Below are positions 4,236-54,820 of a stretch of 64,000 bases of DNA, piece by piece (the stretch's first letter is position 1; each line of letters starts with the position of its first letter). This stretch comes from Perkinsus chesapeaki (lineage: Eukaryota; Perkinsozoa; Perkinsida; Perkinsidae). The stretch lies in the NCBI GenBank assembly GCA_013115145.1, contig JAAPAO010000040.1, positions 45,983-109,982 of the forward strand, written 5' to 3'. The notes under the pieces are model-generated. The model was not told the origin of the DNA. It saw nothing but the letters and a program-made list of their open reading frames with translations, and made no database searches. Both the position numbers and the translations under genes were made by a program.

Positions 4236-4809
4236 ATTGGGAGAGAAACGTATAAATACATTCAGAAATTGGTCTCACGAGTGTGGCTCGATAGACCACA
4301 GTGATGATGATGCTGGCTGTAACCACGACGTCAGGAGAGGCCACTCGTCGATAGAAACTGCTGCTACTGCTGCAACCTTAATAATAATGCGCTTGTTGTT
4401 CAAGCTGCTTCCCTCTATGCACCCCACGGAGCTGAGGCGGCACCATTAGCAGTGTAATGGACACCATTCTGTAACGAGTAAGATACTCCATTTAATGACA
4501 ATGGCTTCAAACCAGCTACGAGCTCAGATGGGGAATGCGATAATACCTACACAGAACTCGTGAACCAAGCAAAGTCAGTCAGTAAGAATGGCGGCCAATG
4601 CTAATTAACTAAGCCCCACGCACTGCCTACTCAGATGTGATATCCTAGTCACATGCGAGGAGTAACCTTAAGAAGAAGAAGAAGAGACCTCACTGCTATT
4701 CACTCCAAAGCTCAAGAGGCTCCATGGCCTACACCGGGGTAGGCCAATGAACCGTATAACTACTACTACCGCCCGGCTGCCTTGTAGTTATCAAGCTAAT
4801 AGCCAACCG
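4236..4809. other. Intergenic spacer
   Basis: Lies between the 3' end of the isoleucyl-tRNA synthetase gene and the PAC4-like gene. It contains a GAAGAA microsatellite near 4674. I see no convincing coding potential. Confidence 0.5.
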
Positions 4810-9678
<4,869 letters not shown>

Positions 9679-9822
9679 CGCAGGTGCAAGAAAACCCCTC
9701 CATGGTCGTATCACGAATAACCACTCGCTACGCCAAATTGATCGATCACCTTCTCAAAAACCGCGCGCCCCGAAATCACTGACCGGCGCAGAGAGAATAA
9801 ATGATTCGTCTGTAGACTAATA

Positions 9823-10303
9823 CAGTCCTCCAACTTAGAATATCACGATTTTCATCATGATAGAGAGGTCCCAGAGTGAAGCCTGTCACTGAGTTTCACG
9901 ATGCACACGGTGCAACATCATGCACCGATTGTAGCTATTTTTCCATTTCCCCGTGATCTCTCCTCAACTGCTTCACACTGCTCAATGAAACTTCGAGGGA
10001 TAAATACTGTATGTGCTAGGTTTCATATGCAATTAGAGTTATAATCAGCCTCTCCCATTTCGAGGGACTTCCTTGAGGAAAATCGTCATTTTAGGGCTGA
10101 AATTAAGGCATGTATTCAAAATTAACTTGGCATCCTTTCTGTGCCGACATATCAGCTCCCAATAACCAGACGCTGGAATACCTGGGTGGTATATTCGAGG
10201 CCCTATGTGAACGAGGCTCTCTGAGTTTGGGGCACAGAGTGGCCAATCTGGCAGAGAATGGTCATCACAAAAACGCGATATTCTAAGTTAATTTGGAGGA
10301 CTG
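9823..10303. mobile_element. MITE-like element with terminal inverted repeats and TA flanks
   Basis: The left end reads CAGTCCTCCAA then CTTAGAATATC; the right end carries the inverse (GATATTCTAAG, then TTGGAGGACTG at 10293-10303), with a 5-base insertion between the two blocks. Each end is flanked by TA (9821-9822 and 10304-10305), the target-site duplication expected of Tc1/mariner-type elements. The 481-bp interior has no ORF, so it would be a non-autonomous miniature element. It sits between two divergent genes, so parts of their promoters may lie in or next to it. An internal stem (CGGTGCA / TGCACCG) is seen near 9910-9935. Only one copy was noticed in the window. Confidence 0.65.
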
Positions 10304-10423
10304 TATTAGTAGTCCAGTAGATTAGCCTATGTGCTGCCTCGACTCTAGATCTAAGAGGCTTTACCACATTAAAGTATCAACTTACACTATTAGAGAGACT
10401 CTTTACCTTCACTCTTCAGTTGC

Positions 10424-11996
10424 ATGCCTACTCTCTCACCACCATTATGGCGTCGGACATTCAAACGAGTAACCTTTGTTTCCTCGTTATCCCTAACATC
10501 AGCACTACTCGGCTACTACTCCTACGATCCCGGTTTCCGCCGCGAAGTTGAGTTCTGGCGGCAAGTCTCCCCGATTGCTTTTCGCTACCTAATATACACA
10601 GTTCGCGGTCTCGACCTGTCCCCGCTTCATGGCAGATATTCTCCCCGTGCCCGGGATATCTGTGAGCAGCTTGGCGGCCTCTACATCAAGATGGGTCAGG
10701 TCCTCTCGGTTAGGCCAGAGATCCTTCCCGAGGCCTACAGACTTGAGTTTGCCAAACTACAGGATACAGCACCACCAGCCTCCTTCGACGAGGTCATCAA
10801 ACCAGTCCTGGAGGAATCTTTAGGTCACAGCGTGTCTGACCTATTTTCTTACGTGGACCCGGTGCCCCTAGGATCAGCCAGTATTGGCCAGGCCCACGCT
10901 GCCACTCTCCTTGATGGGCGAGAGGTCGTCCTCAAAGTTCAGTATCCGGATGCCAAGGCCCGGTTCAAAGTGGATCTACATTGCCTGTCAACACTAGCGA
11001 ATTGGATGACGCCTGCATTCTCGCAAATCATGGAGGAATTCGAAATTCAGTTCCTCACTGAATTTGACTATCATAACGAAGCCAGGAACATCACAGAGAT
11101 CCGCCGTGAAGTACTCGATGCAACTGATCAATGGAGAGGTCTCGTAAACCTGCCAGAGGTCATTCCCGAATACACCACAGATAGAGTGTTGTGTATGACG
11201 CTGGTGCCCGGTGAGAAGCTGGAGACTGTTATAAGGAAGGACTGGCAGAGGAGGGGGGTTGACATCGGGCCCGACTTCAAGGAATGGTTGAGAACGCAGC
11301 AGCGGCATAGACAAGAGATCGACACTAGGCTTCGTTCGGCTGCATCCTGCTGGCTGCTGCTGCTGCCTGCTTGGGCCATTCGAGCTGGACTGTGGGTCTG
11401 GAGAGCATGGTCTCCGTCTCACTCTGATATGAGCAGTTTCATAAGCACTGCTGTCCGAGTCCATGGCTATGAACTATTTGCATGCACACTCTTTAATGGC
11501 GACCCTCATCCGGGCAACTTACTAGTCGACCTCAACACTGGCAAAGTTGGCCTTATCGATTACGGCCAATGTAAACGCATGGATGACAAGACCCGTCTGA
11601 AGCTGGCCAGGTTGGTTGTAGCAGTAGCCGATGGAGTTCCCCAGGAAGAGGCCAAAGCTATGGTCGAGGCGGGCATCAGGACCGCTCGTAAGGACGAGCG
11701 TTACCTCTCTATCATTGCCAGACTTCTTTTTGGTCGTATCGAGCCCTACATGCTAGATCCACAGTTTCACCTGGACCTGCATAAGTCTGACCAGATAGAG
11801 TCCCTCCCTGGAGACACTCTAATGGGGTAAGTATACTGCCACTATCTTCCTTAGTATTTTGTCTAGGTACCGAGTAGCGATGCTCCTTCGAGGCCTGGCC
11901 CTAGCCACAAGGCACAGCATATCAGTGGCAGAGTTGTGGAAAGATGAAGCACAGAAGTGTATCGAACGTGGTGGGAGAACAGTTTTTAACACATAA
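10424..11996 (+). CDS. ABC1/ADCK (UbiB/COQ8-family) atypical kinase-like protein
   Basis: Two exons (10424-11826, 11867-11996) split by a 40-nt intron with a GTAAGT donor; the product is about 510 aa. Family landmarks in order: the KxGQ helix (LYIKMGQVLSVRPEILP, about residue 87), the loop GSASIGQAH in place of the usual Ala-rich loop, the ATP-site lysine in VVLKVQYP, the glutamate in EFDYHNEAR, NGDPHPGNLLVDL and IDYGQ as the DFG equivalent. Members in mitochondria and plastids support coenzyme Q or other isoprenoid-lipid metabolism. The N-terminus is basic with a hydrophobic segment (VSSLSLTSALLGYYSY), compatible with organelle targeting. Oddity: between the N-lobe and the DPHPGN motif lies an inserted, very hydrophobic segment (CWLLLLPAWAIRAGLWVWRAW). 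The last exon ends at TAA 11994-11996. Which ADCK subgroup it belongs to I cannot say. Confidence 0.9.
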
Positions 11997-12637
11997 CAGT
12001 TTCTGAATCCACCATGCATTTGGTTTCAAGTTCAAACCTATCTGAACCGATGGAGCGTGGGACGGTAAAGCGATTACAACGGGTTGATAGTAGGAGGTAA
12101 TGACAAAGGAACAAGGACCAGTGCGGCAACGACCGTGAAGGAGGGCGCCGCAGCAGAATTCCTCACCAACTTCGACCCACTGGAACAACTTACACCTCAC
12201 TGGAACAGCTCTTTAGTGTATCTGTGCACTACCCGGTTAGCGGTAACAACTAAAACACTGTTTGGCAAGTATGCTATGAAAACGGAGGAAAATAGACGTA
12301 CCATGTCCGGGGACCCGGTACACAGATAGGTAAACGTAGCGAGGCAGCAGCACCAGCATCAACAACAATCATCAACATATACAGCAACATACTCATTCTT
12401 ACTGTTATTAATGTATTAGTGATAGGCAGCAGTAATGTTACTACTACTTGGTAAAGACGTTTAGTACATTCTACTACCATTTTATCTACAACACTAATAG
12501 AGCAAGAACAACAAGCGCAGTAATGGCGGTGGTGACGGTGATGATGATGGCAAGTACCTCTGTTGGTGGTACAAGTAGTATCAGACTATCAACACATCTT
12601 GACTTATTATCAACTATACGTGGAAGAACGGACTACT
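11997..12637. other. Convergent intergenic spacer
   Basis: Lies between the 3' ends of the ADCK gene (+) and the nucleolin-like gene (-). Short open frames on both strands lack any protein signature. It is rich in CAA/ATC triplets on the plus strand from about 12350 to 12560. Confidence 0.5.
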
Positions 12638-14825
12638 TCAATCCGAGTCGGAGTCGTCATCATCGCCAAAGGTAGTCCTATGACCGGCGAACTCCTGGAT
12701 TGTTCCCTTTGCGGCCGCGGCTACGCCAGAGCCCTTTCCTTTACCCTTGCCCTTGCCCTTGCCTTTGCCACCCTTGCCCTTGCCGCCCTTGCCCTTTCCT
12801 TTGCCACCCTTGCCACTGGACTCGCGAGGCTGGTTGTAGTTGACTCTGATCTGTCGTCCCTCAAGATCGGTACCGCTGAGCTTAGTGGCCTTCTCGGCGG
12901 AGTCCTCATCACCGAAGTCAATGTAGGCGAAACCACGAGGGGCACCGGTCTCTCTATCAGTAGGCATGAAGCAGCGAGTAATGCTACCGCAGTCACCGAA
13001 GACCTCATAGAGCCAGTCCTGGGTCATAGAGAAGGGAAGGTTGCCAACGAAAACAGATGCAGACTTCTCGCCGAGCTCGTGATGGCCCTTACCCTTGCCC
13101 TTGCCGCCCTTGCCACCCTTACCGCCGGCGTGGTCGTTCTTAGGGAAGCTGTAGTTGATACGGAGATCACGGCCCTCGCAGTCCTCACCGTTCTTGGCGA
13201 CGGCCTTCTCAGCAGCGTCCTCGTCGGCAAAGTCAATGAAGGCAAAACCCTTGATCTTGCCGCTCTCCCAATCAGTGGGGAGACTGACACGCTCCATATC
13301 ACCGCACCAACTGAAGATCTGCTCGAGCCACTCCTTGGTCATAGAGAAGGGCAAGTTGCCAATGAAGACCGACTTAGACCTCTCAACAGAGTCCTGAGCG
13401 GAACCGTCATTCAACTTGGTCTTCTTGGCGGCAGGGGCCTCATCCTCCTCAGTGGTGGCCTCCGAGGCGGCGCGCTTCTTAGCAGGAGCTTCTTCCATTT
13501 CATCATCTGAAAGAACGAGAATAGACAACAACCGTGAGCAAATTCAATTTCTTACCAGAATCCTCGCTCTCCTCATCCTCCTCGGCGACGGCGGCAGCCT
13601 TGACCTTCTTGGGGGCCTCCTCTTCCTCATCAGAGTCAGAGTCGCTAGAGTCGGATTCCTCAGCGGCGGCCTTCTTAGTGGCGGCCTTCTTGGGGGCGGG
13701 CTTGGCCTCCTCCATTTCCTCATCAGAGTCAGAGTCGCTGGAGCTGGACTCTTCAACAGCGGCCTTCTTGGCAGCGGCCTTGGCCTTAGGGGCAGCCTTC
13801 TTGGCCGGGGCCTCGTCCTCGCTAGAGNNNNNNNNNNNNNNNNNNNNNNNNNNNNNNNNNNNNNNNNNNNNNNNNNNNNNNNNNNNNNNNNNNNNNNNNN
13901 NNNNNNNNNNNNNNNNNNNNNNNNACAGCGGCCTTCTTGGCAGCGGCCTTGGCCTTAGGGGCAGCCTTCTTGGCCGGGGCCTCGTCCTCGCTAGAGTCAG
14001 AGTCGCTGGAACTAGATTCCTCAACAGCGGCCTTCTTGGCAGCCTTCTTAGGAGATGCCTTGGCCTTAGGGGCAGCCTTCTTGGCCACGGGCTTCTTGAC
14101 CTCCTCTTCATCATCGCTAGAATCACTGCTGGAGTCGGACTCCTCGACAGCAGCCTTCTTGGCGGCGGCGGCCTTCTTAGTGGCCTGAACAGCAGGCTTT
14201 GTAACCTCTTCCTCATCATCACTATCGGAATCAGAACTCTCGTCCTCCTCCTTCTTAGAGGAAGCAGCTATCCGTGCCTTAGCATTGGCAACGGCCTTAG
14301 CGGAAGGAAGATCACTCGCATCAGAATCACTATCAGAGGAGGAATCGTCATCGCTTTCAACTACCTTCTTAGCAGGGGCAACCTTCGCCTTCTTGGCGGC
14401 GGGCTTCTCGTCCTCGCTGGACGAAGAATCGTCATCGCTCGAGCTCTCCGCGACGGCAGCCTTCTTAGCGACCGGAGCAGCCTTCTTGGCCTTCTTAGCG
14501 GCGGCGGGAGCAGCCTTCTTCTTGGGGGCTTCCTCCTCCTCATCGCTGCTTTCATCAGAGCTGGATGATTCAGCGGCGGCGGCCTTCTTGGTGGCAGCCT
14601 TCTTAGGGGCAGGTGTCTTCTTGGCTACTGCCTTCTTGGGTGCCGGTGCCTCGTCGACAGAAGAGTCGGAGTCGCTGCTGCTGCTGTCGTCCTCCTCGAC
14701 AGGCTTAACGGGCTTCTTCTTAGTAGCGACCTTCTTATGTACAACAGGTTTGGTAACAACCTCCTCATCTGATGAGGAATCATCACTGGAGGACTCGACG
14801 ACCTTCTTAGGCGCAGGCTTGGCCA
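12638..14825 (-). CDS. Nucleolin-like protein: acidic Ser/Lys-Ala repeats, two RRMs, Gly-Lys tail
   Basis: Starts MAKPAPKKVVESSSDD at 14825; one 49-nt intron (13507-13555) restores frame to DDEMEEAPAKKRAASE. The N-terminal half is a run of units alternating acidic Ser/Asp/Glu clusters (casein-kinase-2-like targets) with Lys-Ala-Pro blocks, as in nucleolin and Nopp140/SRP40. Two RRMs follow, with RNP2 VFIGNLPF / VFVGNLPF and RNP1 KGFAFIDF / RGFAYIDF, separated by a short Gly/Lys linker. The C-terminal tail is GKGKGKG-type rather than the usual RGG/GAR, and the protein ends in an acidic DDDDSDSD. Role by family: rRNA transcription and early pre-rRNA processing in the nucleolus. The N-terminal repeat is interrupted by the assembly gap, so its true length is unknown. 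Confidence 0.88.
13828..13924. other. Assembly gap (97 Ns) inside a coding tandem repeat
   Basis: The roughly 70 bases before the gap (about 13757-13827) and after it (13925-13996) are nearly identical and encode the same Ser/Asp plus Lys-Ala unit. The gap therefore sits where one or more repeat copies could not be resolved; its real size and copy number are unknown. Confidence 0.95.
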
Positions 14826-17535
14826 TAATTAGTACGTACGAAAGGAACTGCAAAGAATACATACACAGTATGAAAGGTCATCATCAATAACCCCATCCCC
14901 GAGCTCAAGGGGGCAGTAGGGCACATAGGTATAGAGATATCATCGCCATAGCTTATTCTCACTAACAGATGCGGGGGCAATAATAACGTGGCGCAGTGAA
15001 ATGTCGTGACGCACGGCGGAGCGATGCACTGAGTGACACTTTTCAAAATCGCCGGCTCAAGGTTGCCTTGCGCGTTGTAATCGCAAGCACTGCTTGCTAT
15101 AGCTATATGAAGCACTAAAATACTATCAAAGGCGATAGGATATCATACCATTGTGCCACGATGAAAATATACAAGGACTGATCAGCAAATTACTTTTAGT
15201 AACCACCGATGATAACCGAGGCCAAATCAACGCATAGACAGCAATTACGTAACGCTAATCATGGATAATACTGAGCGTACTTGAATACACTATCGAATAG
15301 GCCACGGGAAGGTTAGCATGGTAGTGTTTATACTGCCTTCGACAAAGTCACACTAGCGCTGTTGGGCCGCCCAGCTTAGGTCTCGTAAGAGGGCTTAACG
15401 CGGACAAGGCTTCCGACTCGCAAATTTGAGGTAAAACAGAGAGGTGCCAAGAAAACGACGAAAAACGATTGCGATAACACTCGAGTGCAGTGTGGTGCTT
15501 GACAGATGAAAAGACGCAAATTGTTATAGCTATTTTCGGATCTTGGGTTCGGACGAAGCCCGAATGGCAGAAATAGCCCTTGCACGGACTCCATTGCGCG
15601 AATCACAGTTTTGCTAAAATGGAAGCCTGCCCTGCCGCATTGGAACAGTTTTGGGACGGAACCATAAGGATAGCGAATTCTCGCTATGTCTCGAATCCCA
15701 GGTGCTTCCTTACAAAACTTGCTAAGGAATGCAGGCCCGAAATACAGTGCGATGCTTGCGATGCCCGAAGGTTGGTTGAGAAATACGTAAGTCTGACCTG
15801 GCTCGTCTGGAAGAGCAGATCACCGCAGTGGTGCTTTGTTCGTGGCGGCCACGGGCCCTAATAGACACTTCCGATTGCACTTTGATATGTCGTTCATTAT
15901 TTCGCACATGTAGTTCTGCTTGGATAAGATATTACGTCCCCCCAATCTTACCCCTTGGCCGTAATGCTGCCACCAAAGGAAGACTCGTAGCTGTTATAGT
16001 ATCAGGCATTGTACAGTGATACGTTATGGAGATCATTAAGATATCCACCACTGTGGTGACATGTATCTCAACGGCAACCACTGCTATTTCAGGTGATTAG
16101 GTGTGAGAAATGTCTTTCTAACTTCGTTGACGCCGAAGAACGTGACCACCAGCTTGAAACTTTTCTTTCTGATCTGGTGCACGATCACAACAGAAACTGG
16201 TAGCAAACTCCGTATAGAGGTGATCACGCAAACGTCACTGTTAGTCTGGAAGCTGCCACGGCAAGATCAAGCGTAGTTCCATCTGAAAACACCAGTTTTG
16301 AAGGTGAATCCCAAATCTTTCGCCCCTACGAATCGTAGGCTAGGATTCTAGCTGAACGCAGCGCTAACGTCACGTGCATCCCGCGTCAGTTTTCCCTTCT
16401 CAGATGAGTCTTCTTCAAGCCCCACCGCTTCAGGAACGCACGATTCTTCCAACGTACGGTCTCAACACATTTTTGCTCTTGCCATCATCTTTACAGATTT
16501 CCTCCTTTGCTCATGGAATCGATGATGATGTTGATGCCATCCAACCTCTGGGATGGACTCCACGTATGACACACATCATACCATAAGGAATTGACTTCGT
16601 GTTGTACCCTACAGACACTCAGTGCCTAGACCGACAATGGATCGATGACGCGGGGTTCAAAAGGGTCCGTGGCACGTAGGTCAACAGCACTTTGGGAAGA
16701 TTAACATTTCCATCCATCAGCTACGAGAAGAGCGAGATCTCTATGACGCCCACAAGAGCTATTCGGGACAATGGAGCAAAATGATGCGAGACGAAAATTA
16801 CGCGTAGGTTCGGAGGTTCTAGTGTTATAAATTAACCGGCTCGAATGGAAGTGTTGGAAAGCCCTTTTGGATAAGCACTTTGAATAAAAGTGGCGTCATG
16901 TGTTAGGAGAGACTCTCCCGTTTCAAAGGGGGCAGCATCGTCCTTCTGTTATTATCAGCTGCTCTCTTCTGTGTCCTACGTGGGGTACAAACTCCTTGAC
17001 AAAAGGCTTGATTGCGAGTGTGATGCAATACACAAAAACAATAACTGTCCTTTCCAGGACGGTGTACTCATTTGCAGGAAGACCGTACCATACTATCGCT
17101 GCGAAATGCTATCGCTTAACGGCTAATGGCCGAACAAAGGAACGGGAGATAAGGAGACCAATGAGGGAAAGGTACGCGCTGTTGATAGAATGATGTCACT
17201 CGAACAGCTTAGTCCTTTTTGACAACGGCTGCTATGGCTATTATTTGTTCTATACCATTCGAGCTAGTAAAATAGTTGCGCTTCGATCATAGAGATAATG
17301 ACTGTTCGTAATCCCAACACTGCTTTGAGTTGCCAAGTATAAATATTAACGACCAACGCAAACCTCGCCGGTACGAGACCACAGAGGGCCACCAGGCCGA
17401 CATAAAGGCAAATTATGAATCGCTCAATCCTCTCCTCCTCCTTCTCATCATCGATACCCCAAACAATGGGGATGATGGAAGAAGGAAGGTGATGATCGCA
17501 ATAAATGACAACAACACTAATAATCGACGGTTTTA
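14826..17535. other. 2.7-kb gene desert with several hairpin-forming palindromes
   Basis: Only short open frames, none with a recognisable motif or plausible splice continuity. The part near 14830 should contain the nucleolin-like promoter. Perfect inverted repeats occur at 15083-15097 (GCAAGCA C TGCTTGC), 16046-16058 (CACCAC T GTGGTG) and 16325-16339 (CCTACGA A TCGTAGG), plus an ATAGCGA/TCGCTAT stem with a 4-base loop near 15672. Confidence 0.55.
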
Positions 17536-35607: not shown

Positions 35608-36127
35608 TAGAGTATCTACTGCTTGTTCAACATTGTTTTCTTGCCACTTCATAACTGTGTGCAGTTGGCGCGGTTTTTTTGCTGAGGTTATGTTGAGGGG
35701 GTGACATATTATGACCTTTGCAGTAGAGAATAGAGAGGGTGTTGCGTTCGTCGGCGTGTTCATTGCGCTGGGGTCCCTATGCAGCCTAGCTCATTACCCA
35801 GTTCTACTGCAGCTTGAACTCTCGGAGGTTTTTCCGCAGGTTCTTTTTCTTTAGCAAGGGCTCCTCACTGATCGGCTCGCCGATTACCTTGTGTGACCGA
35901 CTCAGTCATGGATGCAGCCCGACTACTGGTCAGCCCTAGTCGGCGACTAGAGCAGCCCGAGATTGAGCGTCTGACACATTGTGTCTCAGTTGTATCAACC
36001 TTGCTCACGTATTCTGCGTAGCGAATCGTGACAAGGCGTGTTGGCAGTGCCACTGCTCTGAATCAGAGGATGTTATACCGTGGCCTTATCCCATACGCCT
36101 ACTAAGCTAATAAACTATAGTACAGGA

Positions 36128-36148
36128 CCTGTACTGAGTCAGTACAGG
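36128..36148. repeat. Odd palindrome, 10-bp arms
   Basis: CCTGTACTGA, centre G, TCAGTACAGG: perfect arms. Embedded in a GTAC-rich tract. Confidence 0.95.
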
Positions 36149-36202
36149 TACCAGTACCAGTACTACAGGTACTGTACATTGGCATACATACAAAGAGCGT
36201 GT

Positions 36203-36217
36203 TGCCTGGACCAGGCA
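36203..36217. repeat. Odd palindrome, 7-bp arms
   Basis: TGCCTGG, centre A, CCAGGCA. A second, smaller stem (AGCTGA A TCAGCT) lies at 36242-36254. Confidence 0.95.
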
Positions 36218-36458
36218 CCCTGGTCACTATTTTCCACCGGTAGCTGAATCAGCTCTGAGTTTTCCGAGTTTTCTTGTCAGGGCTGTCAGGTAGAGCGTCC
36301 CAACCCGACTTGGGACTAGGTTGCCGGTCTAAACTAGGTTGACCGGGTCTTCAACAACGTTCCTTTTTGAACTGTGTGGGTCTGACTTTTATGGTCCATT
36401 AGTCATGGAACTCCAATGACGGAGTCGCCTGGCCGTTGATTTGCAAGAACCTCCACCT

Positions 36459-36505
36459 CTCAGTTAAACTGAGTCAGTTTGGTTGGAACTTGAGTACTGT
36501 ACTCA
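36459..36505. repeat. Chain of three odd palindromes, two overlapping
   Basis: CTCAGTT A AACTGAG (36459-36473) shares its right arm with AAACTGA G TCAGTTT (36466-36480), and TGAGTAC T GTACTCA (36491-36505) follows after ten bases. All arms are 7 bp and perfect. Confidence 0.95.
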
Positions 36506-36641
36506 GCAGACCTGTCTGGCAGTACCTGGCAGATAATGCCTGCTGGAAAATGGCTTTCGCTTTGCCCATCGTGCGTTATCGGCCGAGGTGGGGCCAAGCT
36601 GTCAGCGAAAACCGACGACCACCATGGGATTCCGGTCTCGA

Positions 36642-36656
36642 CTCGATACTATCGAG
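36642..36656. repeat. Odd palindrome, 7-bp arms
   Basis: CTCGATA, centre C, TATCGAG. Confidence 0.95.
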
Positions 36657-36854
36657 GGCTATGTCTTAAGTGGGATGAGTTTTACCAAGCAATGAAGCGC
36701 GACTCTATCTAGCTTTCTGTTGTTCAAGGCATTATAAAGAGAACTCTCGATATCGCGGTCCCGCTCCTCACTGCGAGGCAAGTCTCAAAGTTTGAATTAA
36801 ACTGACTTCGAAAACTATTAAGATCTCGGCAAAACTTCTCCAAATTTCTCCTAG

Positions 36855-36876
36855 ATTTCTCCATCGATGGAGAAAT
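36855..36876. repeat. Perfect 22-bp even palindrome
   Basis: Arms ATTTCTCCATC / GATGGAGAAAT with no spacer; it lies seven bases before the longest palindrome of the region. Confidence 0.95.
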
Positions 36877-36882
36877 TCCGAT

Positions 36883-36911
36883 GTTATCGATCGATAGTAT
36901 CGATCGATAAC
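36883..36911. repeat. 29-bp odd palindrome, 14-bp arms
   Basis: GTTATCGATCGATA, centre G, TATCGATCGATAAC. Longest perfect palindrome I found in the window; the arms also contain ATCGATCGAT sub-palindromes. Confidence 0.95.
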
Positions 36912-36969
36912 TCAGCTTTGCGGAGACAACGTCACGCCCTCCAAGTAAGCAGCGCGGCTCATTTTAATC

Positions 36970-36988
36970 TCGCCCAATTATTGGGCGA
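36970..36988. repeat. Odd palindrome, 9-bp arms
   Basis: TCGCCCAAT, centre T, ATTGGGCGA. Confidence 0.95.
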
Positions 36989-37579
36989 TGATGTATTTGG
37001 CCCCAATACATTGACCGAACAAGTATGTGATTAACTAAGAGTGGTCCTCGACCGCTAGTGTTGTTTCCAAAGAGATAGCGCATGGAGAGGTGGTAAGATT
37101 TGTGGCGTGCGCACTTTTCAGCACACAACTAAGGGACAGAGCTAGGCTAGCGGGATCATCCTATGCACATTCCCAGGACTTCCGCTTGACGCCAGTTTAA
37201 CAATATCAGAATCCCGTCCCAACCCGCTCCGGAGGAGGCCTGCGGCACGTTCAGCCGTGCGATCGGACCCTGTTGTTCACAGGTCAGTCTCTTCGCACTG
37301 CATAATATGCTGCAGGCTGCCACGGTCGCTGATGTGTACTGGTGTAGCTTGGCACGGTTTCGTGCCAGCCAACTACTCCCGGTGCACTATCAGTGTCCGG
37401 CCTACGGCTCCACTCCACACCCTCTAGAGCAGGCACCAATGAGAACAACTTTATTGTGAAGTCCTGTACTACACAGTTTGCTGCAAACAGTTTGCCGTGG
37501 AATGTTTGGTAACTGCGACCTTTTCGGGCACCCTTGAAGACTAACTTATGAATGATGCTGCGAGAGATAAGGCTAATGA

Positions 37580-37594
37580 CTCATTAGTAATGAG
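37580..37594. repeat. Odd palindrome, 7-bp arms
   Basis: CTCATTA, centre G, TAATGAG, followed at once by a partial copy (CATTA G TAATG). Confidence 0.95.
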
Positions 37595-38013
37595 CCATTA
37601 GTAATGACTATCAGTATCGGTGTCAGCCACTCGTTAACTACCTTCTCCGACGTCATGCAAGAAGCCTTCTCGAAGAAGGCGCACGAGAGGATTCGAAGGA
37701 GAGTATCGGCGACGACTCGAAGACCTTTACGGTTAGACCAATACGGTTAACGATTACGAGAACTTTATCAGTGAAGTCGGAGGTTCTAAATGTATACTCC
37801 TCATCATCTCTATGACGTAGTGAGCATCGGTTAAATAATGCCTACTGTCACTATACACTTTCCACTTGTTACGAGAAATCGAACGGTTCCGACAGTAAGT
37901 TTACTGTCAATCCGGCAGACCAACACCCCCGTCATGGTGATGAGGTGATATGGTGTTGTATATAATCTAAAGCGTGATTCCTGATCAGATCAGTCTGATT
38001 ATCAAGCGGATAT

Positions 38014-38032
38014 CATTGCTATGATAGCAATG
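38014..38032. repeat. Odd palindrome, 9-bp arms
   Basis: CATTGCTAT, centre G, ATAGCAATG. A 6-bp-arm palindrome (CTGATC A GATCAG) lies at 37981-37993. Confidence 0.95.
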
Positions 38033-38079
38033 CTATCCCACTGCTCCGAGGATCTCAATAAACTGTAGGGTCTACAGTT

Positions 38080-38126
38080 ACTGTAGTACAGTCTGTAGCC
38101 TACGGAATGTACTACAGTGACTGTAG
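38080..38126. repeat. Pair of odd palindromes with related CTGTAG arms
   Basis: ACTGTA G TACAGT (38080-38092) and CTACAGT G ACTGTAG (38112-38126); a further CTGTAG/CTACAG stem with a 3-base loop sits just upstream at about 38063-38077. Confidence 0.9.
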
Positions 38127-38787
38127 GCATCCTCGGGGCCCTAGTGGCTCGGAGCCTATCCGGACTCCGACGCTCAGTGATTCCGAGTCGGGGATCGAAG
38201 TTCCAGTTTCGAAGTTCCATTTGTTAGTGTTAGAGAAAGACTCATAAAATTTTTATGTTGGGGGTACCCAAAATGCACATTCACTGCCTATATCAGATTC
38301 ACATTTGATATAGGCTACCGCGCTGAATAATGCAACTTAATAAGCTGAGCCTATATTTGTATTATACAGAAATATAATATAGCAAGGTAATTGCGTTAGC
38401 GATTCCGGGAATAGGGCTGACTCCGTCCGGGTCTCGGGTTTAACTGTTGGTAGTTTACCCCTTGAACCAATAGACATACCTCGCGGCTCGATCGTTATGC
38501 ACTGTTTTACTAGCGATTTCGTAACATGTATATCACAAACAGGTCATCTTTCCGAGAAGTTTTCATCCTTTTCGATATGCTCGTATTTACTCGGCTTTCG
38601 CGTGTGTAAGGAAATCACATCGAATAGAATAACTTACATGTTCAGCTCGGAGTTATGTGCTGTCCGAGTTGTGCATATTTCGCACTTCACGTACTAGATG
38701 GAACACACAGCACCGGCTACCAGCACGTCATGTCTCATACTCTAACACGTGCATAGACGTATACTACAGCTCCTGGGAGTTGATCAG

Positions 38788-38802
38788 CTTGATCAGATCA
38801 AG
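38788..38802. repeat. Odd palindrome, 7-bp arms
   Basis: CTTGATC, centre A, GATCAAG; adjacent to a TGATCA site. Confidence 0.95.
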
Positions 38803-39356
38803 TTAATTACATTTACCACCGTTTCGTGGGATGATTATACGAGCATTGCGGTCTTGCCCTTCAGACACTGCCGTACCACAGTTTCTCTACGACAGGTACT
38901 ACTATCGCAAACCAGCTTGTCCGAATGGTAGGTGATCAGGAGCGCATCGGCACTCCCAATGCTTGGTAGCAAGTTGGTAGGCGCTCCGAACGGGGGTAGG
39001 AAGCCCCCATTCCTTCAAGTGGAGCGTAATGGGCATTACTAATAGCGGAGTATTCACATGCAGTGCGTAACATCATACCGACGTTTAGCCTGCCATACCC
39101 GTAGAAGTGGTCGCACTTGAGGATGCCCCATACAGTCATGATCTGTCTGATGTCTTTTGATAGTAGCAGTGCATTACCTGATCGATGAGGCTTGAGTGTT
39201 GAGTTGGTTCGAGTATTTGCGGGTCTACCTGTGGTTGCTGACTTAATCTGGGTTATTTTTCGTATCTGTAAGATCCTAATCGATCACCGAAACGGTTGTG
39301 CGAGCGGTTTAGTGTCGCTACTGAGAATCGATCCCGGGTCGTCGCAGTTGTGCAAT

Positions 39357-47342: not shown

Positions 47343-48296
47343 CTATTGATTAGCGAAGTCAACACCTCTTTGAATATCCCCCTTCAGCTTCTCACACACT
47401 TCCTTGATTCTCTTGCTCTCGTGTTCGTTGAGGTCCTTAATCTCGTGAACCTTTTGGAGCCCTTCAGGGCCGAAGTCGCACTTGTAGGCGAAGAAAGGCA
47501 CATCGTTGTATGGGACGTTCACGAAGGCGCAAGCTGAAGTCGTGGTGCCCCTCTGTCCTCGGATGACAACATCAGCGAACTTGGCAGCAGCCAAAGCCAT
47601 GGCGAGAGTGGCAGATCCAGCACCAGCCTTGGCGTTCACAACATCGGTACCGGCGTTCTGGACATGGTCATCCAAAGCAAGGACGGTGTCGTGGTCGATA
47701 TCGACCTTGGGGGTGGCATGAGAGAAAACGGGCATGATAGTCACACCGGCATGACCGCCAATAACAGGGACATCAACCTTACTGACATCGAGCCCGAACT
47801 TTTCAGCAACGAATGTGTTAGCGCGGGTAACATCCAACAAGGAAACTCCAATGACCTTACGATGATCGTAGACACCGGCCTTCTTATACACTTCGGCCAC
47901 CACAGGCACTGTAGAATTGACAGGGTTGGTGACGATCAATAAGGTAGCATGAGGAGCGTACTTAGCACTAGCCTTGGCGAGATCACGAACGATACCAGCG
48001 TTGATATTGAAGAGGTCATCTCTTGTCATACCGGGCTTCCTTGGAACACCAGCAGTGATAATAACAACATTCGAGCCAGTGAGCGCAGCCTCGATCTCCC
48101 CCTCGCCAGCATATCCCTTAACCTGTGCTGGAGTGTTGATATGGCTAACGTCCTCAGCAACACCAGCGGCGGGGGTGCGGGCTTGAGGGATATCATAGAG
48201 GGCCAACTCAGTAATCATAGGGTTCATCTTCAGGAGCAATGCTAGCGGTTGACCGATACCGCCAGACGCGCCGAGTAGAGCCACTTTGGTCGACAT
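47343..48296 (-). CDS. NAD-dependent malate dehydrogenase, mitochondrial/bacterial type without targeting peptide
   Basis: A single uninterrupted 317-codon exon from ATG 48296. Oxidises malate to oxaloacetate. NAD-binding [19 protein letters not shown] at the N-terminus; substrate loop [18 protein letters not shown] with both arginines; [10 protein letters not shown]; the catalytic Asp/Arg in [14 protein letters not shown]; catalytic His in [14 protein letters not shown]. Length matches the family. No N-terminal extension, and the C-terminus (VDFANQ) is not a PTS1, so cytosolic location is likeliest. Being intronless is unusual among these neighbours. Its gene converges with the LicD-like gene. 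Confidence 0.96.
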
Positions 48297-52542: not shown

Positions 52543-53319
52543 CTACGTACAATCGTCGGCTTTGGCTACTTTTTTCAAATACACCTTTGGTGGCGCAGAA
52601 AAGGACCCTTCTGCCTCTAGTTTCCCACCATCCGTCGACTGCCCAGCACTCTTCCCTTCATCAGCCTCCCCGCTCAGGAACGCCTTCACTACCTTCATTA
52701 TCCTACTGGCCCACACCGCTGAGATCCCTAGAATAATGAGGCAGCTAGTCTTAACCTCTATGGGAGTCGTAGGGCTCCCACAGAGGTAAACGGCCATGTA
52801 GGGGGCCACCACCATGCGACCGATAAGGAATAGGATGGCAAAGACAGCTTGGGCCACCAAAGCTAGCAGAGAGCCTTCTGGAGCCAGGCCCGTCTGGAAG
52901 AGATAGAGCCACGGCGTGGAGAGCTCCGCTACGAAGAGGAACCATGCGAGCTGATAGCCAGCATAGCCTGTGTACAGGGCCACTAGCTGGCCCCACACTA
53001 CCGTCAAGTGATGGAAGGATCCCTCAAAGTCCCGGAGGACCAGCAGACATAGCAGAGCGTCCAGTATAAAGTAGGCAAGGGAGAAAGCTAGCATGTCCGC
53101 TTGGAACTGGCTTGAAGGGCTGATAAAGTCCCACTCGTCCTTGAGAATTATACAGCCACACCAGAGGGATATTATTATTGAGTGGGCCACGGACATGCAA
53201 ACTGATGCCTGGAAAGCGGTGAAGTTGGCCGCCTTCTCAGCGAAGAAATATATGGAGGAGAAGAACGCCAGGGAGCCAAGCGTGGTGCCGATGTGCCATG
53301 TAAGGGATGGATCGAACAT
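52543..53319 (-). CDS. TLC-domain multispanning membrane protein, copy 1
   Basis: A single exon of about 258 codons if started at ATG 53319 (MFDPSLTWHIGTTLGS); an upstream GTG-led extension exists but lacks an ATG. Six to seven hydrophobic spans. The TRAM/LAG1/CLN8 signature region shows LAYFILDALLCLLVLRDFEG, SFHHLTVVWGQLVALYTGYA with the conserved His pair, and FLFVAELSTPWLYL. The C-terminal tail is charged and ends with KKVAKADDCT. Families with this fold include ceramide synthases and TLCD/TMEM56-type proteins; the LAG1 motif of ceramide synthases is not present, so I favour a TLCD4/TMEM56-type role in membrane lipid handling. Adjacent to a paralogue on the same strand. Confidence 0.85.
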   Translation of the reverse strand: MFDPSLTWHIGTTLGSLAFFSSIYFFAEKAANFTAFQASVCMSVAHSIIISLWCGCIILKDEWDFISPSSQFQADMLAFSLAYFILDALLCLLVLRDFEGSFHHLTVVWGQLVALYTGYAGYQLAWFLFVAELSTPWLYLFQTGLAPEGSLLALVAQAVFAILFLIGRMVVAPYMAVYLCGSPTTPIEVKTSCLIILGISAVWASRIMKVVKAFLSGEADEGKSAGQSTDGGKLEAEGSFSAPPKVYLKKVAKADDCT

Positions 53320-53989
53320 TATCAAACCGGCTGTCACGATATAGCGGCAGTGCACGATAACTCGGAAAATTTAACGTGGGATTGGAAAGCGACCCCGAAT
53401 CGGAGATATGCGACAAACCTCAGTAGACTGGAACTAGTATAACAGCGTCGGAAGGATATTTCCCAGGAAATTACGATTGTTGCGTTTGTAGCATTCAAAA
53501 ATGCACTTCTTATAGCCACTTGGTGAGGGCCTTTTAGGGAAGGCCAGTAACAGCAATTCCCACATAAGCGTTCGCCTAAATACAGGGCAGCTTCTGCACC
53601 ATCTATATGAGCTTATTACTGTCGCTATCAATGATATACTGCCGCTTACGTCTACGGCTCAAGCAAATATAGGCTAAGACCCAGTCCTCAGCCCAATATA
53701 CTAACGCAGAGCAATTGCCGTCACCCTATCCAACCGTTACTACCTCTTCCCACCACGGACCGTCATCCAGAGGTCATCTCCACTGTAAATAACTGCCGTA
53801 AGGTGCTTCTGGTGTTCCCCACTATCCGGTGCCCTCCACTGTACCCATCAAACTCGACACTTTCCAAATGCTAATGGTAGCTAACTGATTGTGGCGTGTC
53901 CAGCGCGCACTGTGTGTATAAAGGAAAGTGCCCCTAACGAGCTCAACAAGTGTGATGACAACAATCTGGGATATCAAACAGCAATACTA
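53320..53989. other. Spacer between tandem TLC genes
   Basis: About 670 bp; no exons or repeats recognised. It holds the promoter of copy 1 and the 3' flank of copy 2. Confidence 0.4.
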
Positions 53990-54820
53990 TCAGCATCCGG
54001 CGGTTCCGGCCACGACAGAGGCGGTCGCGGCGGCCTCGGACAGCTTCTCCTTCTGCGGTGAGAAGATACTGGCGAGGGTCTGCCCAGCAATCCTGAGGAT
54101 CCTGATGGCCCAGAGCACCGAGATGGACATGAGACCCACGCATGATAACTTAGCCAGGAAAGGGACATCTTCATTGCGGAGGAGGTAGTAGGACATCACA
54201 GTGCCAGCTCCAAGGCGGCCACCGATAAACAGCACCGCGAAGAGGCCCTGGCAGACCAGAGCTGCCAGACTACCTTCGGGAGCAAAGCCGGTCTCGAAGG
54301 CGTAGAGGAAAGGGGATGACAGCTCCGCAATGAAAAGGAAGGCTATGATGATGTAGCCCGATAAACCAGTGTAAAGGACGCCTATCTCCCCGACCACGCA
54401 GAAGGTATGGTGAGCTACGGACTCCCAATCCTTGAGGATGAAGGTACAGAGGAAAATATCAACGATGAAGTAGCCAAGGGAGGCTGACAGGAGGGTCGCT
54501 TCCTCCGGGGTAGAGGCTCCGCTCACGGTGGGCTCGTCACGAAGTAGGATGGAGCCGCCCCAGATGATGCAACCCAAGGCGTGTGTGAGCGACATTGCAA
54601 CTGTAGCTCGCCAAAGGGTGGATGTATGCCTTCGAGCAAAGGCGCAGAGAGAAGCGAAGAATATAGTAGAACATACGGTGAGGCCTATAGACCATGTCTC
54701 CGCTGGATGGAGGGGGAGGCCTGAACTTACTATATTGTCAATGATGGCGGAGGAAAAGGGAGCTGACATAGTGACAAGAAACTGGCAGACGGCGGACTTC
54801 CTCTTCTGCAGCATTCTCAT
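53990..54820 (-). CDS. TLC-domain multispanning membrane protein, copy 2
   Basis: A single exon, 276 codons from ATG 54820 (MRMLQKRKSAVCQ); a downstream in-frame ATG (MSAPFSSAIIDN) is an alternative. Same architecture as copy 1: LGYFIVDIFLCTFILKDWES, VAHHTFCVVGEIGVLYTGLS with the His pair, FLFIAELSSPFLYAFETGFA and a shared APEGSL-A-LV-Q segment. The C-terminus is short and charged then Ala-rich. The paralogues are well diverged outside the core, so an old tandem duplication. Both are intronless, unlike most genes here, suggesting the ancestor already lacked introns, or arose by retroposition. Confidence 0.87.
   Translation of the reverse strand: MRMLQKRKSAVCQFLVTMSAPFSSAIIDNIVSSGLPLHPAETWSIGLTVCSTIFFASLCAFARRHTSTLWRATVAMSLTHALGCIIWGGSILLRDEPTVSGASTPEEATLLSASLGYFIVDIFLCTFILKDWESVAHHTFCVVGEIGVLYTGLSGYIIIAFLFIAELSSPFLYAFETGFAPEGSLAALVCQGLFAVLFIGGRLGAGTVMSYYLLRNEDVPFLAKLSCVGLMSISVLWAIRILRIAGQTLASIFSPQKEKLSEAAATASVVAGTAGC

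Follow-up and report, generated by a model that had tools for sequence, protein, structure and literature searches.

Odd palindromes in the genome of Perkinsus chesapeaki as probable excision footprints of a hAT-type transposon

The non-coding DNA of Perkinsus chesapeaki, a protist that parasitises clams, seems to contain short palindromic scars in their thousands, each left by one jump of a mobile element. The scars are described here from a 64,000-bp stretch of contig JAAPAO010000040.1 (assembly GCA_013115145.1, positions 45,983-109,982 of the forward strand; hereafter the window), part of a 35.4-Mb, 884-contig genome, in which a dense cluster of perfect inverted repeats with a single unpaired centre base lies in a gene desert. 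We consider it probable, with good confidence, that these odd palindromes are excision footprints of a hAT-type DNA transposon. The underlying insertion rule, by which an 8-bp word gains 14 bp, is held with greater confidence than the hAT assignment, because it is independent of the identity of the transposase.

A fixed 22-bp unit with one base lost at each junction

The unit is 22 bp long and consists of bases 1-7 of an 8-bp word W, the reverse complement of W and bases 2-8 of W, with W varying from place to place. The same form can be written for a word of any length k (the first k-1 bases of W, its reverse complement, and W without its first base), and a unit is scored by the number of constraints that it satisfies, the maximum being 14 for k = 8. 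When exact 6-bp words were sought in 254 kb in the arrangement X-n-X'-n-X, with spacer pairs of 0-8 bases, the pair (1,1) returned 27 cases and every other pair two at most. A scan of k = 5-13 across a 315-kb set, which includes loci picked as scar-rich (L025-L029) or as bearing hAT domains (L021-L024), showed strong enrichment at k = 8 alone, with 40 perfect units, 33 with one broken constraint and 32 with two. The same three classes numbered 0, 0 and 0 in one mono-nucleotide shuffle and averaged 0, 0 and 1.6 over 20 dinucleotide shuffles. No perfect unit occurs in the 315 kb at any other k from 6 to 13, and among units with one broken constraint the neighbouring lengths show a mild excess over the shuffle (30, 8 and 1 units at k = 6, 7 and 9, where the shuffle gave 10, 0 and 0).

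Secondly, the junctions of the unit are as regular as its length. In a scan that allowed 0-3 bases to be lost at one junction and 0-3 at the other, 73 units in which no more than one constraint is broken fell at (1,1), that is, with exactly one base lost per junction, and the other 15 combinations returned 0-10 units each, except for 26 at (3,3), where the constraints number only 10. The (1,1) losses therefore make the two centre bases the complements of the bases that would adjoin the element. The units also form a decay series, which continues below the three classes given above with 69 units at score 11 (13 in the dinucleotide shuffle), and this spread from perfect to decayed suggests an activity that was long-lasting and continued up to recently.

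The unit accounts for most of the odd palindromes. Among one-base-centre palindromes with arms of at least 7 bp, 131 of 179 lie within a unit that scores at least 11, a share that chance alone would put at about 14%. The palindromes often form overlapping pairs: in 254 kb the centres are separated by exactly 7 bp in 29 of 39 pairs of successive palindromes (no more than 40 bp apart, arms of at least 6 bp). All twelve palindromes named in the original prediction were located in the window, the entry given as 36128 beginning at 36127. The window total is 22 perfect one-base-centre palindromes with arms of at least 7 bp, 18 of them within 35936-38802 and four outside the cluster, and 12 of the 18 belong to the fixed unit at a score of at least 11. 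The cluster is far denser than its composition predicts: 35700-38900 contains 18 such palindromes, whereas 500 dinucleotide-preserving shuffles averaged 0.196 and never exceeded 2. The arms are mutually unrelated, as had been proposed. Palindromes with even spacers are few in the same stretch (35.7-38.9 kb; 1, 2, 3 and 3 with arms of at least 7 bp at spacers of 0, 2, 4 and 6), a small excess over the 0.05-0.26 that the remainder of the window predicts. The palindrome scan and shuffled controls suggested together with the prediction bore out the cluster as real, yet some other stretches of the genome match its density, so that the place itself is not special.

Units missing from paralogous copies

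Paralogs were obtained by searching the genome with its own scar-rich stretches, and seven units with a score of at least 12 could be aligned. These testable units were chosen by eye, by setting match ranges against unit positions, and the paralog pieces near them were compared; two units at alignment edges (L020:7993 and L013:8295) were left out. All seven lie outside the window, whose own paralogous stretches cover none of its scars.

In six of the seven, about 14 bp were inserted at what had been an unoccupied 8-bp site. Exactly 14 bp are missing from the paralog at four units (L012:1573, L012:4406, L025:3077 and L020:8187), in the case of L020:8187 from all three tandem paralogs. At L020:9001, 13 bp are missing from three of three paralogs (two of the two covered in a second set of alignments), and at L012:3286 the paralog is without 15 bp, the empty copy there not being a clean match to W. 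The empty copies carry W with one or two substitutions in five of the six cases, as with GTGCAAAA where the unit implies GTGCAAAG. Nine pairwise alignments contain five gaps of 14 bp, every one of them on a unit; the gap in the L042 copy measures 12 bp by the pairwise program and 14 bp by MAFFT. The gaps and the near-W empty copies together therefore indicate that an 8-bp word became 22 bp.

The target word

The words from which the units are built share a motif. In 98 non-overlapping units, counting one two-letter, low-complexity unit (L025:1934), T occupies position 2 in 47 and A occupies position 7 in 47 (p = 1e-10 against 26.5%); with overlapping units included, the counts are 51 of 105 for T2 and 54 of 105 for A7. 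A bias extends to the bases just outside W, with A before it in 37 of 105 and T after it in 41 of 105 (p = 5e-4). W thus matches nTnnnnAn, the hAT target motif that is reported together with an 8-bp duplication for Hermes (PMC10368747) and, from earlier work tabulated in PMC3276498, for hobo.

Proposed mechanism and the search for a donor

We infer that a hAT transposase, hairpin formation on the flanks and an annealing step generated the units in the following way. A hAT element would enter an 8-bp site W = b0-X-b1, in which X is 6 bp and W tends to nTnnnnAn, and would duplicate W. On excision the transposase would nick one base inside each flank and join both strands, leaving hairpin-ended flanks whose tips are single unpaired bases (b1' on the left and b0' on the right, read on the top strand). 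Were the hairpins then cut open at a distance of 8 nt or more from the tip, each flank would end in a 3' overhang made of inverted W, and because both flanks carry the same W the 8-nt overhangs would be complementary. Annealed and sealed, they would give b0-X-b1'-X'-b0'-X-b1, in which 22 bp replace 8 for a net gain of 14 bp, and this derivation would yield the observed unit with both centre bases correct.

Parts of this scheme have precedents in the literature. The domesticated hAT protein Kat1 of Kluyveromyces lactis leaves hairpin-capped flanks that are mostly cut 1 nt from the terminal repeat, and 8-bp duplications are given for hAT elements in the same source (PMC4763223). Footprints of Ac/Ds include palindromes whose centre is the complement of the base adjoining the element, with joining by microhomology (PMC5873905). 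The genome also contains hAT dimerisation-domain matches in four places, all above the curated cut-off.

Several observations weigh against this assignment. The hAT matches are fragmentary, and the DUF4371-type part of one is single-copy. The 315 kb yielded no convincing element with an 8-bp duplication and terminal inverted repeats when a duplication and 12-bp terminal repeats with at most two mismatches were sought 60-8000 bp apart; duplication lengths of 5-10 gave 79, 26, 9, 1, 8 and 0 matches, those at the longer lengths in part coinciding with repeats of L003, and the single match at length 8 is about what chance would supply by estimate. Around the four hAT matches there is no element in L049 or L050, while L023 and L024 each have one weak candidate. 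The varied and mostly short footprints of hAT assays are not matched, only the full 8-nt inverted insert standing out: shorter P-nucleotide footprints (45/101, 12/82 and 12/208 at gaps of 1, 2 and 3) are near the chance level and plain tandem duplications of 8 bp are not in excess, both as judged by estimate rather than by shuffles. Among the odd palindromes, 48 of 179 score below 11, where about 19 are expected by chance (4^-7). One unit of the seven testable ones (L013:8364) is common to its paralog, and a further unit of score 11 (L026:5320) has no 14-bp gap against its paralog. A Ku-domain match is present and contains stops when read in six frames; the uniform product therefore cannot simply reflect missing end-joining, an explanation of the uniformity that is weakened accordingly. 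Finally, the T2/A7 motif alone does not single out hAT, because the P-element target GTCCGGAC, which is likewise duplicated over 8 bp, has T2 and A7 too (PMC3276498). As to the donor, the sample amounts to about 1% of the genome, and by estimate some tens of active copies could therefore escape it.

The candidate in L024 (669-1391) is 723 bp long, with 8-bp flanks and 11-bp terminal repeats that contain one mismatch each. It overlaps Tc3-type and hAT-domain pieces and is better than chance by estimate, and its duplication is without the T2/A7 motif. In L023, units overlap in register beside the hAT-domain match (1713-1769, with units at 1713, 1720, 1727, 1741 and 1748), possibly marking a site of repeated use.

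Other sources of inverted arms

A different transposase, or a nuclease that cuts with an 8-bp stagger, whether P-type, Mutator-like, Merlin or a domesticated enzyme, might have made the breaks, and this is the best placed of the alternatives to a hAT enzyme, although we regard it as improbable. Duplications of about 8 bp are also made by other superfamilies, the P-element target shares the motif as described above, and no donor of the scars was found in the 315 kb or in the surroundings of the hAT matches. The one-base offset of the units, however, fits hAT hairpins. The overhangs left by P elements are long and 3', and these elements are not known to form hairpins. For Mutator-like elements, PMC5225508 describes Muta1 as inserting without target preference, duplicating 8 or 9 bp and excising precisely in about 90% of cases with the duplication present, and gives an 8-10 bp duplication without preference, and precise excision where duplications are present, as the footprint of the group, whereas the scars show a clear motif and a net gain of about 14 bp.

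Back-and-forth copying of a short stretch by template switching, in replication or in break repair and including snap-back synthesis by polymerase theta, could give X, X', X, and would produce both the inverted arms taken from local sequence and the net insertion that are seen. Quasi-palindromes made by template switching have variable arm and spacer lengths. Varied lengths are thus predicted, but k = 8 with one base lost per side dominates, and the nTnnnnAn motif is left unexplained; since neither the fixed length, the one-base junction losses nor the target motif is predicted by it, this explanation is unsupported and very unlikely. The original prediction had offered template switching as the mutational process behind the cluster: a mutational origin holds in kind, with six of seven testable units arising as insertions of about 14 bp from local 8-bp sequence, and the proposed route is not supported.

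The other proposal made at that time was selection for cruciforms or RNA hairpins. The idea that selection maintains the hairpins of the desert, as cruciforms, regulatory RNAs or protein-binding palindromes, can draw on the perfect arms and the high density and is nevertheless scarcely credible, given arms that are unrelated to each other, units that range from perfect to decayed through all mismatch classes, the spread of the unit over many contigs, the lack of any Rfam family at gathering score in the window, and the absence of six of the seven testable units from paralogs.

Scars and other features of the window

The desert that holds the scars (35704-39192) was rightly called one by the measure of open reading frames (ORFs), because none of at least 80 amino acids is present in it (bacterial code, with ATG, GTG or TTG starts). 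It contains 11 non-overlapping units of score 12/14 or more, of which three are perfect, and scars may accumulate in such deserts because an insertion of 14 bp is harmless there. The first perfect scar (36459-36480, W = CTCAGTTT, 14/14) yields the palindromes at 36459 and 36466, and the second (38016-38037, W = TTGCTATC, 14/14) those at 38014 and 38023. The third (37573-37594, W = CTAATGAG, 14/14) is followed by two further arms in register, so that the feature extends over 37573-37608 with overlapping units at 37580 (score 12) and 37587 (score 11); its five alternating arms may represent two events at one site, and some other sites with five alternating arms may likewise have been used repeatedly.

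Four of the remaining scars reach 13/14, at 36203-36224 (W about TGCCTGGT), 36635-36656 (W about GTATCGAG, yielding palindrome 36642), 38072-38093 (W about CTACAGTA) and 38781-38802 (W about TGATCAAG, yielding palindrome 38788). At 12/14 are the scars at 38105-38126 (W about CACTGTAG, yielding palindrome 38112), 37475-37496 and 37658-37679, and a candidate at 38333-38354. A nested, decayed cluster at 36113-36177 comprises scar-like units at 36113 and 36156 (score 11) and palindromes at 36119 (arms of 8 bp) and 36127 (arms of 11 bp), an arrangement that may have come from repeated events at one site. Beyond the desert the window has a single scar of score 12 or more (16325-16346, 13/14).

A few palindromes of the desert stand outside the scar model. 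The even palindrome of 22 bp that had been listed with the cluster was verified at 36855-36876 and lies side by side with an odd palindrome with 14-bp arms (36883-36911, best score 9), neither of the two in 36855-36911 fitting the scar rule. The odd palindrome at 36970-36988 (9-bp arms, best score 9) is not explained by the model either, and that at 36491-36505 (7-bp arms) has a best scar score of 10, under the cut-off.

Other repeats lie in the desert and in the sampled loci. An interspersed repeat of about 415 bp with an AAC-rich end occupies 37034-37449, and copies or parts of it occur on C857, C611, C424, C855 and C671; the copies start sharply at AACTAAGAG, and no scar of score 12 or more lies within the window copy. 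A short repeat of about 74 bp (38437-38510) is found also on C800, C849, C410, C180, C187 and C445. In L013, a tandem array of repeat units, each about 48 bp long (7646-7781), has related copies on C237, C676, C261, C834 and C83, and in L029 a repeat of about 170 bp (6644-6816), seemingly with a TG start and a CA end and with copies that are 74-98% identical, may be a retrotransposon end repeat. The 415-bp repeat of the desert, a 155-bp repeat of L013, an 85-bp repeat of L025 and a 172-bp repeat of L029 were viewed as possible donors of the scars and set aside.

Elsewhere in the window, an ORF at 47343-48296 encodes a malate dehydrogenase that is 92% identical to a P. olseni protein and 75% identical to the named P. 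chesapeaki protein, and the window's contig probably carries two copies of this gene. Two adjacent ORFs with TLC domains on the minus strand (52543-54820) are apparently a tandem pair, and a TLC-domain protein of the window is 78% identical to a protein of Perkinsus olseni and 74% identical to one of P. marinus. A tRNA scan of the window gave no match, and the assembly contains a run of 97 N at 13828-13924.

Number of scars in the genome

The unit occurs on many contigs. Density was estimated from the first contig samples only (L004-L020, 160.7 kb), in which 16 of the 17 stretches are contig starts and are possibly richer than average. Of the 17 loci, 11 contain non-overlapping units that score at least 12, 44 in total, which corresponds to about 9,700 per genome; with overlaps the count is 46, and a bootstrap gives 4,500-16,700 per genome. 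From 84 kb of the window's own contig (the window, L002 and L003, with 12, 0 and 1 units) the figure is about 5,500. By extrapolation the genome would thus hold roughly 5,000-10,000 scars.

Discussion

Several described systems are comparable. In PMC5873905, Ac/Ds excision in Candida albicans gives palindromic insertions with the complement of the end-adjoining base at their centre, which are explained by hairpin opening and microhomology joining. The 128 excisions described there yielded 28 different footprints, whose palindromic inserts do not exceed 3 nt, arms of up to 20 nt being mentioned for yeast, whereas in P. chesapeaki one full-length 22-bp class stands out, in an accumulated genomic record and not in an assay. 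Ds in Arabidopsis, for which a hairpin and microhomology model is likewise given, offers a precedent for dominance, with one footprint in 11 of 17 cases; that product, however, is short and replaces junction bases, and is not a 14-bp inverted insert (PMC1978519). Hermes and hobo share the 8-bp nTnnnnAn target (PMC10368747, PMC3276498), but their pattern is known here from scars, no intact element having been found. Kat1 serves mating-type switching (PMC4763223), whereas the Perkinsus scars are dispersed across many contigs. Introner elements of Amoebophrya, from a related alveolate lineage, also combine inverted and direct repeats but, as described in PMC7789003, are introns with inverted repeats of 8-20 nt and direct repeats of 3-5 nt, and not 22-bp scars. 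Footprints of hAT elements are known as a kind, and what is unusual is the single full-length product and its number. The footprints of Ascot-1 in Ascobolus are reportedly palindromic, hAT-like and diverse, and are said to have been compared with V(D)J recombination. Among the matches listed from the open-licence literature, judged by title and the start of the abstract, there is no report of such scars in Perkinsus.

The uniformity of the product makes a question about repair testable, namely how hairpin ends come to be opened and rejoined without the diversity seen in Ac/Ds assays. For annotators, the scar rule provides an easy check on short odd palindromes of the sort that might be mistaken for regulatory hairpins. 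More speculatively, and as a possibility that we hold to be doubtful, hairpin-capped breaks in P. chesapeaki may be repaired almost deterministically along a single route, in which they are opened beyond the target duplication and their 8-nt cohesive overhangs then anneal, a hAT enzyme that is highly active or domesticated may have used that route thousands of times, and the non-coding DNA may be largely a datable log of single excisions, some of them at the same site. If the footprint reading is true, every scar would stand for a separate event, with its arms giving the word from which it started and its degree of decay a measure of its age, and past cut-and-paste transposition could be counted after the elements themselves have vanished.

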